The notes under the pieces are model-generated. The model was not told the DNA's origin, searched no databases, and saw nothing but the letters and a program-made list of their open reading frames with translations. Made by a program: the position numbers and the translations under genes. From a virus, in the IMG/VR virus record IMGVR_UViG_3300014491_000108, positions 1 to 36,293 of that record: 36,293 nucleotides of DNA; one strand, 5' to 3'. This document shows positions 5,212-21,246 of the stretch, piece by piece (within the stretch, counting starts at the first letter, position 1; each line of letters opens with the position of its first letter).

Positions 5212-5287
5212 GGTCTTGTAGCTCAGTGGACAGAGCGAACGCCTTCTAAGCGTTATTGCGCAGGTTCAAATCCTGCCGGGACCACCA
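5212..5287 (+). tRNA. tRNA-Arg (anticodon TCT)
   Basis: The 76-nt cloverleaf is complete. The acceptor is GGTCTTG/CGGGACC with two G-T pairs, the D arm GCTC/GAGC, the anticodon stem AACGC/GCGTT around loop CTTCTAA, and the T arm GCAGG-TTCAAAT-CCTGC. A CCA end is encoded. The anticodon TCT (5245-5247) reads AGA codons. Phages often carry such a tRNA to supplement host-rare arginine codons. Confidence 0.95.
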
Positions 5288-7117: not shown

Positions 7118-7558
7118 ATGAAAACGAAAAATGATATTGCATCTATTTCGTCATAATTAATATGCAGTTATTCTGAACTGAACGGGCAAGAAATATATCG
7201 CCTTAAACATCTTATTAAAAACACTATTTTAGAGAATTTAAATAATTCATGTAGGATGTTATTTCTTTCACCTATTGACCGTGTGGTTGAAGTGGTTGAA
7301 GTTGAAAATGAGTGGTTCTGTAATTACTTAACTAATCACGGTTTTAATACTGATTCATTTCAACGCCATTTCTCGATTGAAGTAGGCTCAGAATACATAG
7401 ACGTTGGAAATGACTGTGTATATGCTACTCAACACTATATCGAAAAAATATCGGCAGATAGTTTTTGGGATGGTAAACAAGAGGCTCTTATAAATGAATG
7501 GTTGCAATTTGCCAAACAGAATGGCGGCGAATATATCAACCACGACTATATTTCTTAA
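7118..7558 (+). pseudogene. Gene with in-frame TAA at codon 13
   Basis: ATG 7118 follows AGGA and reads MKTKNDIASISS, then TAA (7154-7156). The same frame then stays open to 7558 and is protein-like throughout, including CSYSELNGQEIYRLKHLI before the first later ATG at 7256. Starting at 7256 gives 100 residues but discards good-looking sequence. The bases CATAATTAATA around the stop also resemble the late-promoter element, so transcription from there with a non-ATG start is an alternative. The family is unknown. Confidence 0.5.
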
Positions 7559-14615: not shown

Positions 14616-15485
14616 ATGAAACTCATAATCCTAAAATCAGTGCGACACGAACCGGCAGGATCAATAACAAAGGCTATTCCGCCTTCCTCAAAATACGAAC
14701 ACGGTGGAAAACTTCGCGTTAAAGTAGGCGATGAAGTTGTCTACTCCGTAAAGCTAGATCGGTCGCCTTCCGGGAAAGAGGAACTCGTTAACGCCACTGT
14801 CTCTCGAATCGTCAATCACGATTATGAGCCTCACGTCATTTTATCCTACCCAAAAGGCGCGAGAATCATACACGCAGTCGAAGATTACGATAGCCCGAAG
14901 TGGCAACCGGGAAACGGCATTGCGGCGCGTGAAGGACGGGAGCGGAAGAAGATCCTCGTGGTCGTGAAGAAATCCTGTCAACGAGATCCACTTATCATTG
15001 ACAAAAGCATCATGGCGCCCGACCCGATCATAGCCCGCATATCGGAATCGGCGGAAACGATCAACTCATTGCCAAAATGTCCTCGTTGTGGATCAAAGGA
15101 TACGGGGCTTATTGCTCCCGACTTCGAGACGTACAAATGCAAATCATGCAATCGTAATTTTACGATGAAACGAATCAAAGAATCTGGTAAAAAGGCGCTT
15201 TCGTTCTTGCAAAAGGCAGTTCATGTACCGATCTTTAGCGACCGTGGCATGATATCTAAAACGGTAGATCACGATCAGCTCAAGAATGCGCGGATCTCAG
15301 CGAATCGTAACCCTACAAAGGCCCAAAAGCTCGCGGGCAATTATCGCAAGGGCCATGTCAAAATACATGGACTGTATATCAGCATCGAAACGCCAAAAGG
15401 CGCTGTGCGAAGCGGTGTGGACCAAACCGGTAAAGCATGGAAAGTTAGGCTAAAACACGATTATGGCTATATCAGAACAGCTTGA
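14616..15485 (+). CDS. Polyvalent protein: zinc ribbon plus first half of InPase-like domain
   Basis: A 289-residue protein in modules. It opens MKLIILKSVRHEPAGSI, almost identical to a linker inside the giant protein at 15747. A charged mid-section includes KKILVVVKK. A zinc ribbon follows, CPRCGSKDTG...YKCKSCNRNF (about 155-183). The C-terminus reads NPTKAQKLAGNYRKGHVKI followed by GLYISIETPKG and HDYGYIRTA. That end is the first half of the inorganic-pyrophosphatase-like (InPase) domain of phage polyvalent proteins. It stops exactly where the family continues with DGDH(V/I)DVF. The other half begins the protein at 15747, in the same frame. Confidence 0.75.
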   Translation: MKLIILKSVRHEPAGSITKAIPPSSKYEHGGKLRVKVGDEVVYSVKLDRSPSGKEELVNATVSRIVNHDYEPHVILSYPKGARIIHAVEDYDSPKWQPGNGIAAREGRERKKILVVVKKSCQRDPLIIDKSIMAPDPIIARISESAETINSLPKCPRCGSKDTGLIAPDFETYKCKSCNRNFTMKRIKESGKKALSFLQKAVHVPIFSDRGMISKTVDHDQLKNARISANRNPTKAQKLAGNYRKGHVKIHGLYISIETPKGAVRSGVDQTGKAWKVRLKHDYGYIRTA

Positions 15486-15499
15486 TAGGAGGTGATTTT

Positions 15500-15745
15500 G
15501 TGAGCAGTAAACGAAGAATAAGGCGATTGCAACATAGGTCAAAATGTGGTAACAAAATTGGATACCAAACGCAAACGGAATGCGTAATTAATCTTATCAA
15601 AATGCAAAGAAATTTTCATGATCCATATCTCGCTTCTTATAAATGTCCGTTTTGCGGACTATGGCATTACGGGCATCGTGACAGTATAAAAAAGAAGCTA
15701 ATCGGATTGTCTAATTTTTTTGAAGGAAAGACGATGGTTGCTTAA
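15500..15745 (+). CDS. Small zinc-binding protein lodged between InPase halves
   Basis: An 81-residue basic protein from GTG 15500, preceded by a near-perfect AGGAGGTG site. It contains Cys-Gly (KCGNKIGYQT) and then YKCPFCGLWHYGHRD, a C-C-H-H zinc-binding arrangement. Small proteins ending KCPFCGGWHxGHR are common in phages and bacteria, usually of unknown role. It occupies a different frame from its neighbours and splits the InPase domain. It ends 1 base before ATG 15747. Confidence 0.75.
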   Translation: MSSKRRIRRLQHRSKCGNKIGYQTQTECVINLIKMQRNFHDPYLASYKCPFCGLWHYGHRDSIKKKLIGLSNFFEGKTMVA

Positions 15746-15746
15746 C

Positions 15747-18700
15747 ATGGACGATACAATTAAAGAACACGGGCGCCGCGCCCCTATCGGAAACGACGAT
15801 ATGCACATCGATGTAATTGTCGGGCCGCATCCCGAATCCGAAGTCGTCTATATCGTAGATCAGGTAAACCCCAAAACCGGCGCATTCGATGAACATAAGT
15901 GCGTTATGGGATGCGATTCCGAAGATGAGGCGCGCAAAGTCTATATGGGGAATTATGAGGATGGATGGAAGGGGCTTGGCGATATCAACGCCGTAACCAT
16001 TCCTCAGTTTCGAGTATGGCTCGCGTCCGGGATGACCAAAATACCGTTTGGCGGCAAAGTTCCTACATTCGGATGGTATGGCGTAGACCTAGAAGGCACT
16101 CTCGCAAAGCACATAACCGATATGACGACGATTGGCGCGCCGATACCCCGCATGGTGAAGCGAATCAAAAATCGGATGGCAAATGGCGATCAGTTTAGGA
16201 TCGTTACGGCCCGAGTTGCGCACGATAAAGACGGTTCGCTTACATGGAAGATCCGTGACTGGCTAAAGCGTATTGGCTTAGACATCCCCGTTGTCGCGAC
16301 TAAGGATAAGAACATGATCCAACTTTGGGATGACAAAGCGCGGCAGGTGAAATACAATACCGGGAAGTTTAAGAAGGCTGTTATCATCGTAAAAGCTGTT
16401 CGTCATGAACCAGCTGGCTCTATCGAAACGAATCCCGATACTGGTAAAACCATACATGGAGGACAGTTCGCGCCAGATCGATCAATCGCGACCAAAGAGC
16501 AACTTGATGCGGCTAAATCGCGTGGGGTTTATGTGCCGCCGAATTCTTGGAATGTTTGGGTAAATCCCGATCCGAAAGAAAAAGTTCTCGCGAAATGGTT
16601 TGACAGTAAGGGACGACCACAATCAGCTTATTCGGAATATGCTATTAAAGAGAGAGAATCACACAAAATCGATTCTGTTGCGCACATGGCGGAAGTCATA
16701 GACGATATTGACGATAAAATAAAGCAAGACTTGAAACTTTCTGATGCGACTAAAGACCGCGTCGCTGCGGTTGTCGCCTACATGATTAAAGAGGGATCAC
16801 TTCGAGTTGGAAGTGAAAAATACTCGGAAGAGAATGACACGTATGGCGCTTCATCGCTTCGAAAAGAACACATCAGCGTAGAAGACGGAAGGGTAAAAGT
16901 TAATTTCACGGGAAAACATCATAAGAATTGGCAACGCGAATTCCATAATCCAGATCTTGCCGATGCGGTTGAACATCTGAAAGAACTGCCGGGCGAACGA
17001 GTTTTTCAGTATCATGGACCTAAAGGCGCGCTCATTGCGATGGACGAAACGAAAATACGCGGATACTTAAAGCCTTTTGGCGTCATTCCCAAACAGTTTC
17101 GCACTTATAATGCAACAAAAATGGCAAGAGAGCTTTTGAAAGAAGCGCCAACGCCAAAAACTCAGGCTCAATCCAGGACTATTATATCAAACGTTGTGAA
17201 AAAAGTGAGCGAATATCTAGGTAACACCCCGGAAGTTTGCCGAGGATCGTATATCAATCCCGCTGTTTTGAGCGATTTTGCAGGTTCGGTTGGAAATCTA
17301 TCGAAAAGCATCGACGATGAAGATTTCAAAACCTATATTCGAATGCTTGCTAAAAAGGTAAAGATCGGAAAAGTGAAGGATGAAGATCCTTTTCCGGATG
17401 ATCTCAATAGCCTTTCAAAATCACTTCTCGTTATCGTCAAGCGCCAAACCGAGGATTTCACGTTCGGAGAGTTCGTGGAGATTGGAAAATCGCTAGACTA
17501 CGATCATGTCGAAGCGCGTATGGGCGAAGTCAAAGGATGTAAACACAATTCCGAGTTGAAGTGTATGGTCGAAGGGATTGGCGGATTTAAGCTACCCGCG
17601 ACCGTATGCAAAAAGTGCGGGCGTATCCGCATGGTCAACGCAATCCACCATACGCTTGCATCTTCAAGAATGCCTATTTTTAAGGCTTTAGCCGAGGGAT
17701 GCTACAAAGATCCAAAATCCTGTGGACTGCGTTGGATTACGGCGCATCCTAACGGAGGCGATACGGAAGGCATTCCTCTGCTCGTTCACGACAATGGCGA
17801 AGAGTATACGGTTGTCGGCGGCGCTGGCGGCAAGATGAATCAACAGGTATTCAAAAAACCAAAAGGCCAATCTTCGCCTAAGTCCGCAATACGAAAAGAG
17901 CGGCGCATAGAAAAGAAAAAGCGCATGGTTGAAGAGCTTGGCGAAAAGGGCGCTCAAATGAAGGAGAATGCCAAAGCTCTCAAAGAAGAGGCGCGAAAAC
18001 AAACCGAAGACCTCACTCAACGTGTCATCTCCATGCTTGACGATGCGTACGCGGGTGGAAACGCGCTTGATTCGGTTCGCGAAGCTGCGGTTACTCGCGC
18101 TCAAAAGGAACATCCCGACGCAACTCCTGCCGAGAAAAAGGAGTTTGCAGAGGATGCATCCGGGCGCGCCGAATCGGAAGCTAAGAATGTCGCAAGACAA
18201 CTTATCGACAAAGCGCTCAACAAAGCAGCTATGCGGGCGCTAGGAGACGATGACGGATCTACCGTCGAATTCAAAGCAAAGATATCGGGTAAAGTGCTCG
18301 TCAAGAAACTCACACCCGATCAGATCGATTCGCTTGTCACTTCATCGGCTAATATCTCTCAGCTCAAGGCTAAGGCCCGCGCTATCGAACGCGCTCTCAG
18401 CACCGGCGACCAAGAGGCGGTAAAGGGCATCGAATCCGATGTACGACCGCTATCGGTTGAAGAGGCTAAGAAGCAAAATCTCGACAAGTATATCAATGGT
18501 CTTGACGTAGACAACCAAACGAACCTTGTTCTCTCGACCAATGCCGCGCCGACAGTCACTCGAAACCGCAATCAGGCTAATGGCGCGATGGATGGACTTA
18601 ACTCGTTTACCTCGAATATCACGGGGAACGCTATCCTATCGCCTATCGCGGTCAAAACGCTTGGTGTAGAGGATGCGGCGCGAGTTGCGGCAGAATATCT

Positions 18701-20714
18701 GAAACATCATGGCGATGCGTCAGGGCTTGCAGAAGGTCTGCGCGACCGGATTGCTAAACAGTCCGTATCGTCTGTTGCCGCTGCGATCGATAGAGTACGC
18801 GAGATGGACGGAATTGTACAGAATGCGAAAGACGCGGCGGCGGTCGGCGATGGCGCGGTTACGACGGCGCAAGCATCAATCCTCGCTGCGAACATGGCGT
18901 CAAATAAATACCGGTTCCTGAATGTCGCTCGCGGTCAGCTCCGGGCGGCGGCGGCGCTTGCGCATCACCTCGAACATCCATCGACGCGACCGCTTCAAAT
19001 AAAAGGCGGATCTAACCAGACCGCAACTCACGCGCTTGCCCGCTCTCTCGGACTTGCGGAAGGCGATTACAGCGTTGAGAAGGCGGCATCGGGCGAAGGC
19101 GGCGGATATCGTATCGACATAGCGCCTGACAAGATAACGAAACTCGTTACCGAACACAAAGCGGAAGAAAGCGACCGAAACGCCAAAATGGATGATTTGC
19201 GCCAAGAAGTTGACGAACACCCTGGTGATTGGCATCCCGAAGGACTCAACTCAAATATCAGGTTGCAATCGCATCAGGAACTTGCGGCGCGGGCTATCGT
19301 AGAAAATAAGCATGTGGTTATCTCATACGGCGCAGGCAGCGGCAAAACGTCAGTGGCGTACGCGGCGGCGGCGGACCTTATTTCATCAGGTAAGATCGAC
19401 AAGGCGCTCATATCAATGCCCGCAAAACCAAAGGCGCAACAAGGCGGTCCGACAGGTGAGGCATCAAAGTTCCTTTCTCCGGAGATGGCGGGGCAAGTTG
19501 TCATTCCCGAAGGTTCCGGATTCAAAAAGGCGCTTGCTCAAATCAAGAGCGGTGAGAAAAAGATCATGGTCATTTCTCCCGATGCTTTACGCAATCATCA
19601 TCAGGAATTGATGGACGCTGGTTTTGGCGGCGAGAAATCTATGTTCATAGCCGATGAGGCACATCGGTTCGCAATCGGCGAAACGGAAGGATCGGGAAGC
19701 GGCATGGCAAAAGCGGCCGCGGACTTCGCAAAATCGGAATATGCTAGCTACATGAGCGGCACATTGATCGAAAATAACAGTTCTGAATTGTGGTCAAGTT
19801 TAAATTCCCTCTTCCCCGGACAGTACGGGTCACAGAAGCAATTTTCCGAGGAGTGGAAACGCCTTGCGCAGGGGTCCGATAACATGTTCTCACCAGAAGC
19901 CATGAACGCACTTCGATCGCGTCTTAGCGGTTCGATGGTCTCATACTTCAAGGATGTTAAAGGCGCATCAGGAGAGCCGCTTACACTCGATAGGAATACA
20001 ATCACCGTAAAGACAGCTCCTCAGCAGCGAACCGCGATTGCGCGTATCAACGCGGCGTACAGAAAAGAGAAGGCGGCGGAAGATCCATCAATCTCAAAAG
20101 CGGCAGGACTGAGACGAGACGCGAGGATCAAACGAGTTCTCACCGCCGGAGTCAAAGGCGAAAACGGAGAACTTATCAATCCAAAACTCGAAGCTGTTCA
20201 AAAGATCTTCGCCGACGAAAAGAATCGTGATCCTCAAAACAGAGTCGGTATCTACTCGTTCGAACTCAACCCGTTGCGAAATGCCGGTAAATCGCTCAAA
20301 GGCGCCAAACTTAAGACGATCACCGGCGCCGACGACGATAAGGCAACGAAGAACTCTATCGATTCGGTGAACGATCGGAAGAACGACACAGACGGCGTAT
20401 TGCTCTCAAATGCGGCGAACTATGGCGTTAACTTGCAGGGCATAGATCATTTGATAAAAATGCACCCTCTCGATACCCCGAGCATGGAAGAGCAACTCGA
20501 CCACCGTCATTTTAGGCAGGGGCAGACACGCAACGTACGCGCAACGACGATTATGACAGATCACCCTGTGGAGCAGATGAGGCAGTTTCGAAATACTCGA
20601 ATCAAGCTCCCGGAAGTAGCCCTCCTATCGAAACTATCAGACGATACGGGTAAATCGGATGTTCTCGCGAAACATTTAAGCACGATTGAGGAGGCAGCTG
20701 GTGAACGACTTTAA
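15747..20714 (+). CDS. Giant polyvalent protein: InPase half, HAD, topoisomerase IB, SNF2-type helicase
   Basis: The protein is about 1655 residues from ATG 15747; TTG 15720 is an alternative start. Residues 19-105 are the second InPase half (HIDVIVGPHPESEVVYIVDQ, NYEDGWKGLG). Residues 108-210 are HAD-like: D114-LEGT, then RIVTARV and LWDDKARQV. A linker VKAVRHEPAGSI leads into topoisomerase IB (about 230-540), with Arg372 (SLRKEH), Lys390 (FTGKHHK), Arg452 (FRTYNA), Asn493 and the tyrosine nucleophile Tyr502 (LGNTPEVCRGSY). Two Cys-rich patches and a long charged coiled region follow. The C-terminus is a SNF2-type ATPase: GAGSGKT 1195-1201, DEAH 1303-1306, SGTLIENN, and HFRQGQTR near 1590. 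It is likely packaged and injected, then acts on incoming DNA. Confidence 0.85.
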   Translation: MDDTIKEHGRRAPIGNDDMHIDVIVGPHPESEVVYIVDQVNPKTGAFDEHKCVMGCDSEDEARKVYMGNYEDGWKGLGDINAVTIPQFRVWLASGMTKIPFGGKVPTFGWYGVDLEGTLAKHITDMTTIGAPIPRMVKRIKNRMANGDQFRIVTARVAHDKDGSLTWKIRDWLKRIGLDIPVVATKDKNMIQLWDDKARQVKYNTGKFKKAVIIVKAVRHEPAGSIETNPDTGKTIHGGQFAPDRSIATKEQLDAAKSRGVYVPPNSWNVWVNPDPKEKVLAKWFDSKGRPQSAYSEYAIKERESHKIDSVAHMAEVIDDIDDKIKQDLKLSDATKDRVAAVVAYMIKEGSLRVGSEKYSEENDTYGASSLRKEHISVEDGRVKVNFTGKHHKNWQREFHNPDLADAVEHLKELPGERVFQYHGPKGALIAMDETKIRGYLKPFGVIPKQFRTYNATKMARELLKEAPTPKTQAQSRTIISNVVKKVSEYLGNTPEVCRGSYINPAVLSDFAGSVGNLSKSIDDEDFKTYIRMLAKKVKIGKVKDEDPFPDDLNSLSKSLLVIVKRQTEDFTFGEFVEIGKSLDYDHVEARMGEVKGCKHNSELKCMVEGIGGFKLPATVCKKCGRIRMVNAIHHTLASSRMPIFKALAEGCYKDPKSCGLRWITAHPNGGDTEGIPLLVHDNGEEYTVVGGAGGKMNQQVFKKPKGQSSPKSAIRKERRIEKKKRMVEELGEKGAQMKENAKALKEEARKQTEDLTQRVISMLDDAYAGGNALDSVREAAVTRAQKEHPDATPAEKKEFAEDASGRAESEAKNVARQLIDKALNKAAMRALGDDDGSTVEFKAKISGKVLVKKLTPDQIDSLVTSSANISQLKAKARAIERALSTGDQEAVKGIESDVRPLSVEEAKKQNLDKYINGLDVDNQTNLVLSTNAAPTVTRNRNQANGAMDGLNSFTSNITGNAILSPIAVKTLGVEDAARVAAEYLKHHGDASGLAEGLRDRIAKQSVSSVAAAIDRVREMDGIVQNAKDAAAVGDGAVTTAQASILAANMASNKYRFLNVARGQLRAAAALAHHLEHPSTRPLQIKGGSNQTATHALARSLGLAEGDYSVEKAASGEGGGYRIDIAPDKITKLVTEHKAEESDRNAKMDDLRQEVDEHPGDWHPEGLNSNIRLQSHQELAARAIVENKHVVISYGAGSGKTSVAYAAAADLISSGKIDKALISMPAKPKAQQGGPTGEASKFLSPEMAGQVVIPEGSGFKKALAQIKSGEKKIMVISPDALRNHHQELMDAGFGGEKSMFIADEAHRFAIGETEGSGSGMAKAAADFAKSEYASYMSGTLIENNSSELWSSLNSLFPGQYGSQKQFSEEWKRLAQGSDNMFSPEAMNALRSRLSGSMVSYFKDVKGASGEPLTLDRNTITVKTAPQQRTAIARINAAYRKEKAAEDPSISKAAGLRRDARIKRVLTAGVKGENGELINPKLEAVQKIFADEKNRDPQNRVGIYSFELNPLRNAGKSLKGAKLKTITGADDDKATKNSIDSVNDRKNDTDGVLLSNAANYGVNLQGIDHLIKMHPLDTPSMEEQLDHRHFRQGQTRNVRATTIMTDHPVEQMRQFRNTRIKLPEVALLSKLSDDTGKSDVLAKHLSTIEEAAGERL

Positions 20715-21246
20715 TTCTCCTAATCCAGAAGGACGATTTAAGCATAGGCGCTATATGTGCGCATCCGAACAGCCTAAGATCGAAGGCTATTCGTGCATTG
20801 CGTCGGTTCGCGGCGGTTACGTTTGGCAAAGCGGGAGCATCAACGCCGAAATATTCAAAATACCTCGTAAACTTGTTGTTGTGCAAATGGAAGGCACATT
20901 TTGCGATCATCGGGCCGTACACAACGGTCATAATATCATAGCGGTGATAACCGAAGCAATCGAAGATGCGCCAAACGCGGTATTGCCGGACAATGAATAT
21001 CTTGCGCTTGTCGATTCGATTATAGCCTATCTCGATAACGACTTCGATGCTGTTATCCATTGCGGTATGGGAATATCTAGATCAAGCTACGTGACATTGG
21101 GGGTTCTTATGAGAGGGACTAAACTGAGTTTCGATGAAGCGCTTCGAATATTAAAAGAGGGGCGCCCGGTGGCGAACCCCAATGCCGGTTTTGCCGCGCA
21201 CGTAAAGCGATTGGAGAGTGTCTTAATTGGCAATCAAAAACTTTGA
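20701..21246 (+). CDS. Dual-specificity / tyrosine phosphatase-like protein
   Basis: From GTG 20701 (GAGGAGG 6 bases upstream) the product has 181 residues. It contains VIHCGMGISRSSYV, a complete HCX5R phosphatase loop with nucleophile Cys121 and Arg127. This is followed by the usual helix and LSFDEALRILKEGRP...PN, as in dual-specificity phosphatases. The general-acid Asp probably lies in the preceding loop (AVLPDNEYLALVD), but I cannot fix it. It overlaps the giant gene by 14 bases. A phosphatase next to co-injected proteins suggests an action on host or virion phosphoproteins, which is inferred. Confidence 0.85.
   Translation: MNDFNSPNPEGRFKHRRYMCASEQPKIEGYSCIASVRGGYVWQSGSINAEIFKIPRKLVVVQMEGTFCDHRAVHNGHNIIAVITEAIEDAPNAVLPDNEYLALVDSIIAYLDNDFDAVIHCGMGISRSSYVTLGVLMRGTKLSFDEALRILKEGRPVANPNAGFAAHVKRLESVLIGNQKL

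Follow-up and report, generated by a model that had tools for sequence, protein, structure and literature searches.

To our knowledge, split enzymes of phages have been described mostly in T4-like phages and for a small number of host genes. Homing endonuclease genes of phages often target conserved active-site codons, and the enzymes split in this way can remain functional (PMC2988022). In Aeromonas phage Aeh1, nrdA is split by mobE, an arrangement termed "genes in pieces", and the split NrdA is fully active (PMC2988022). The DNA polymerase of phages 44RR and 25 is divided into gp43A and gp43B, and the pieces of phage 25 co-purify with activity; the spacer between them holds an endonuclease gene in phage 25 and an untranslated non-endonuclease sequence in 44RR (PMC2988022). 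The polyvalent InPase proteins, to which the locus described here belongs, are believed to be packaged into virions (PMC5512222).

The DNA analyzed here, referred to as the window, is a 36,293-base IMG/VR virus record of a tailed phage. No close cultured relative was identified, as the nearest TerL match was Thermus phage phiYS40 with 27%, and the MCP match was weak. A second record of the same virus (L342) is 99.96% identical over 7265 bases and ends at window position 7265, before the gap in the InPase coding sequence. The occurrence in a second sample indicates a real, recurring virus, while the gap itself is covered by one metagenomic contig only. The split InPase locus sits among the head and packaging genes of the phage, which fits the packaging of polyvalent InPase proteins in the virion. 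Between the terminase and portal genes, a tRNA-Arg (tct) gene was found at 5212-5287. Coordinates, reading frames, and stop codons of the three genes of the locus were rechecked and were as first described; the features are as follows.

14616..15485, + strand: p1, 289 aa, with an N-terminal region of unknown family, a zinc-ribbon-like stretch (CxxC...CxxC), and the InPase N-half at the extreme C-terminus
15321..15479, + strand: InPase N-half, PF18823 positions 2-54, terminal YGYIRT (Pfam E 1.1e-18)
15483..15488, + strand: tandem stop codons TGA TAG closing p1, read from the sequence
15483..15779, + strand: inserted segment breaking up the coding sequence of the InPase, with an uncertainty of 1-3 codons at the junction (profile gap 54-57; absent from 327 of 331 related loci)
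15487..15494, + strand: Shine-Dalgarno-like AGGAGGTG of the small gene, read from the sequence
15500..15745, + strand: 81-aa small gene, phrog_14788 family by profile match, putative zinc-binding (KCPFCGLWHYGH), GC 36.6%, compared with 47.8 and 49.9% for the genes on either side
15747..20714, + strand: p3, polyvalent protein of 1655 aa with the InPase C-half, a HAD-like domain, topoisomerase IB, and an SF2 helicase
15789..16022, + strand: InPase C-half, PF18823 positions 57-134 (Pfam E 2e-24)
15801..15803, + strand: ATG (Met) at the equivalent of Asp67 of E. coli PPase (D 247, E 20, G 1 in 268 intact homologues)
16080..16328, + strand: HAD-like domain next to the InPase C-half; the split InPase of L067 is likewise followed by one

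The gaps between the genes measure 14 bases from p1 to the small gene and 1 base from the small gene to p3. At its end, p3 overlaps with the start of a further ORF (20686-21246) that encodes a dual-specificity phosphatase domain (DSPc, E 2.7e-11). The motif I(L/V)K(S/A)VRHEPAGSI occurs both at the N-terminus of p1 (14625-14670) and in p3 directly after the HAD-like domain (16383-16427). Since the DNA of the two copies differs mostly at third codon positions, the protein motif seems to be selected, and it is possibly a processing or packaging signal.

The Pfam InPase profile PF18823 comprises 135 positions. Residues 236-288 of p1 were aligned to its positions 2-54 and residues 15-92 of p3 to its positions 57-134, with both matches exceeding the curated cut-off. 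As the two matches are in register and fall in the same family rather than in different ones, the end of p1 and the start of p3 are by sequence complementary pieces of one InPase domain, in agreement with the first-pass annotation. When joined, the halves align over the full length with the intact domains of PBC5, BF1-TP2, LE1, phi13:1, and others. At the junction, p1 reads YGYIR-TA-stop and p3 reads RRAPIGNDDMHID, and when set against intact copies, for example YGYIRGTVGRDKDHID, the halves fit together but for one or two extra residues. The profile expects YGYIR followed by T or A and then PIGNDD, and the break is located just after YGYI(R). Both halves share one reading frame and the 81-residue ORF in the gap uses another, as had been noted initially. 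The join proposed at the same time, from GCT (15480-15482) to CCT (15783), restores the domain, but at exactly this point the product is one residue too long.

Related InPase loci were surveyed in phage records, IMG/VR contigs, and GTDB genomes, yielding 331 loci, with some contigs sampled twice. Uninterrupted domains were found in 327 of them, so that the halves are not always separate genes among relatives, while one locus was cut by a contig end and the three split loci represent two further viruses. The 327 include L376, which was first flagged as broken and on inspection contained an in-frame loop insertion in an intact domain. A Pfam search of 795 genomes (399 Pseudomonadota and 396 Bacteroidota) returned only intact InPase domains above the cut-off. 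Searches with p1, p3, TerL, and the MCP returned no close relative with an empty site, only the second contig L342, and the window InPase is 54% identical to its nearest sampled relative.

The gap of about 300 bases is largely occupied by one ORF of 81 residues, which accounts for 246 coding bases, begins with GTG at 15500, ends at 15745, and is preceded by its own strong Shine-Dalgarno sequence. Residues 1-63 of the product match phrog_14788 (E 1.2e-8), and 44% identity was found to the product of a free-standing gene in the virus contig L094. Distant members of phrog_14788 occur in Serratia phage Smarc1 and, near an excisionase gene, in Fels-1; in these other phages they stand alone as ordinary small genes, and the family gave no sign of mobility. 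The earlier description of a "small zinc-protein gene" is plausible as to zinc, given a single CxxC...HxxH motif in the 81-aa protein. The structure predicted for this protein had a pLDDT of 52. The GC content of the insert is within the lowest 4% of same-size stretches in the window. GC3 is 32% in the small gene, and 3 of the 39 genes checked in the window have a lower value. The low GC suggests a later acquisition of the small gene; its codon use is closest to the genes of the phage in its own frame.

The same break was found in two further IMG/VR records. In L067 (IMGVR_UViG_3300035698_007508, 126.8 kb), the InPase stops after HYGYI and resumes at RSPIGKDGDHVD, with the gap occupied by an HNH gene of 114 aa. 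In L159 (IMGVR_UViG_3300021066_000068, 110 kb), it stops after HYGYIT and resumes at AQKGADGDHVD, and the HNH gene in the gap is longer than that of L067 and carries zinc-ribbon repeats. The two HNH proteins are homologous, with 49% identity over their shared part, and both pass the Pfam HNH cut-off (PF01844). Both HNH ORFs start inside the upstream ORF and end inside the downstream ORF. L067 and L159 keep the DGD motif, whereas that of the window copy is altered. The upstream InPase piece of L067 (L067:1192-2658) opens, unexpectedly for a polyvalent protein, with the DNA ligase D 3'-phosphoesterase domain LigD_N (E 2.1e-13). About 80 relatives (L259-L338) of the InPase-splitting HNH genes lie at other sites in viral contigs, and 2 of 80, those of L067 and L159, sit in InPase.

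The breaks in the window, L067, and L159 lie within about two codons of one another, just after the YGYI codons. A rough estimate of the chance of three breaks this close is (5/105)^2, near 0.002, assuming independent events and about 105 detectable positions. With an endonuclease gene at this spot in two other phages, the break looks like a landing site of mobile genes. The three split phage records are otherwise dissimilar, and in a phylogeny of 73 InPase domains the three split copies stayed apart (grouped in 0% of 200 bootstrap trees), while the InPase of L159 paired with an intact copy (support 97/82). AU tests rejected neither a clade of the window and L067 (p 0.48) nor a clade of all three (p 0.32). 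The two InPase-inserted HNH genes did not group in a poorly resolved HNH tree. A Pro adjoining the junction is common to the window and L067 and occurs in 1 of 268 intact copies, and among the loci first examined these two were the only ones with a HAD-like domain after the InPase. Together with the AU tests, the shared domain and the rare Pro leave room for a common origin of these two splits, and the window and L067 may have inherited one split and later come to carry different inserts.

Conservation of the domain was assessed at 30 near-invariant columns, which reach 93% conservation or more among 268 intact sequences. None of the 30, which are distributed across both halves, is violated in the window copy; L067 also keeps all, and L159 misses two. 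Because the halves together retain every one of these positions, they probably still assemble without a covalent link. At the equivalent of Asp67 of E. coli PPase, which we take to be the general base, the window copy carries Met, while 267 of 268 intact copies carry D or E. With this substitution, catalysis may be lost or reduced, and the domain may only tie p1 and p3 together. The window copy departs from the active-site set of an active type I pyrophosphatase, which includes the DGD aspartates, and is on sequence grounds classed as an InPase homologue rather than an active enzyme. In a confident model of an intact homologue (pLDDT 94.7), YGYI lies in a strand at 60-64, and the loop that leads to the next strand (75-79) contains the aspartates, so that the break is predicted to fall in the loop between these strands. 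The best PDB matches of this model, which represents an intact and not a split copy, were pyrophosphatases. The family profile also detects an InPase domain in a solved phage portal, PDB 9b41 (gp19), with E 2.1e-44. The simplest reading would be two half-barrels able to pair, with catalysis altered or lost.

We consider it probable that the InPase gene was split by an insertion at a recurrent homing-type site, in the manner of genes in pieces and here with the small putative zinc-protein gene. A virion-type polyvalent gene would have been cut just after the YGYI codons of its InPase domain, with the loop bearing the catalytic aspartates as the landing site, which homing-type HNH endonuclease genes occupy in at least two other viruses. 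In none of its frames did the insert in the window match the HNH profile, so that an endonuclease origin at this locus is inferred from the shared site. The small zinc-finger-like gene most likely entered at a break that an endonuclease had made, or took the place of an endonuclease gene. The three genes would be translated as separate proteins from one tight operon, and the half-domains most likely pair noncovalently into one unit of pyrophosphatase fold. Such a unit would hold p1 with its zinc ribbon to p3 with its HAD, topoisomerase IB, and helicase domains, and its pyrophosphatase activity is probably reduced or nil. A more elaborate version, which we regard as distinctly improbable, holds that the YGYI/DGD site is a homing hot spot, that a non-endonuclease gene replaced the HNH gene and closes the site, and that the altered domain is reused as a noncovalent clasp of two polyvalent proteins for packaging or injection.

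Decay of the domain is a different reading of the same locus: a chance insertion of the small gene would have broken the InPase and left the halves unassembled, as vestigial tails on proteins that work without the domain. The Met at the Asp67 equivalent fits a decaying domain too, and the remainder of p1 and p3 carries domains of its own. However, neither half shows a violation at the near-invariant columns despite only 54% identity to the nearest sampled relative (although this conservation could predate the split), and the break coincides with that of two other viruses, so that we hold decay to be unlikely. The first-pass annotation had also weighed an intron against gene insertion and preferred the latter. 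An intron of group I, group II, or unknown type with an internal ORF, spliced to give a continuous protein, would account for flanks in the same frame and for an exact or near-exact join that restores the domain, and phage introns often lie in active-site codons. Rfam gave no match of any family to this region of the window at E up to 10 and no intron match in L067 and L159, folding of the RNA from the window is unexceptional (z -1.05), most of the gap codes for a gene with its own Shine-Dalgarno sequence, and the junctions are ragged rather than exact. In L067 and L159, where the HNH ORF overlaps both flanking ORFs, a conventional intron is disfavored, as there is no space for it. The intron reading was rejected on these grounds and is very improbable, in favor of the gene insertion initially preferred.

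A fused protein could also arise in part by ribosome bypassing or stop-codon readthrough. Bypassing is known in phages from T4 gene 60, where the gap is 50 bases; the gap in the window measures roughly 300 bases, opens with the tandem stops TGA TAG, contains a separately initiated gene, and shows no unusual RNA structure, which makes this the explanation to which we give almost no credence. Finally, contigs of two related phages might have been misjoined around the gap, as a single metagenomic contig spans it and L342 stops before it. The regular operon geometry of the gap and the same break with different inserts in two independent contigs speak against such an artefact, and its likelihood appears very slight.

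An insertion at a recurrent homing-type site, as favored here, adds to the known split phage enzymes a different host gene, broken at one and the same point in three phage records, of which two carry an endonuclease there and the third an unrelated small gene. It bears on the use of active-site codons by mobile genes and on what happens after such genes disappear. For a small enzyme fold that is well understood, it also offers a natural place to divide the chain, and it raises the question of whether the halves rejoin, with or without activity.

Compared with known systems, the locus resembles nrdA/mobE of Aeh1 in that a conserved enzyme gene is cut at functionally critical codons by an inserted gene, with the pieces as separate ORFs, and in that an HNH endonuclease gene lies at the break in L067 and L159. 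It differs in its insert, which in the window does not encode an endonuclease, in its host gene, a virion-type polyvalent InPase, and in the change of a catalytic residue. As intact homologues exist and the pieces align with them without loss, the locus probably belongs with genes in pieces; as the inserted gene is an endonuclease in L067 and L159 but not in the window, the window represents a variant rather than a standard member. Like gp43A/gp43B, one gene is split in relatives by different inserts, of which one is an endonuclease and one is not, while the non-endonuclease spacer is untranslated in 44RR and a coding gene in the window. With the polyvalent InPase proteins (PF18823; PMC5512222), it shares the sequence family, probably the fold, and the place among head and packaging genes, whereas the window copy consists of two polypeptides with Met at the Asp67 position. 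The InPase of PDB 9b41 (gp19) provides a homologous domain in a solved virion structure, where, unlike in the window, it is continuous and fused to the portal protein.
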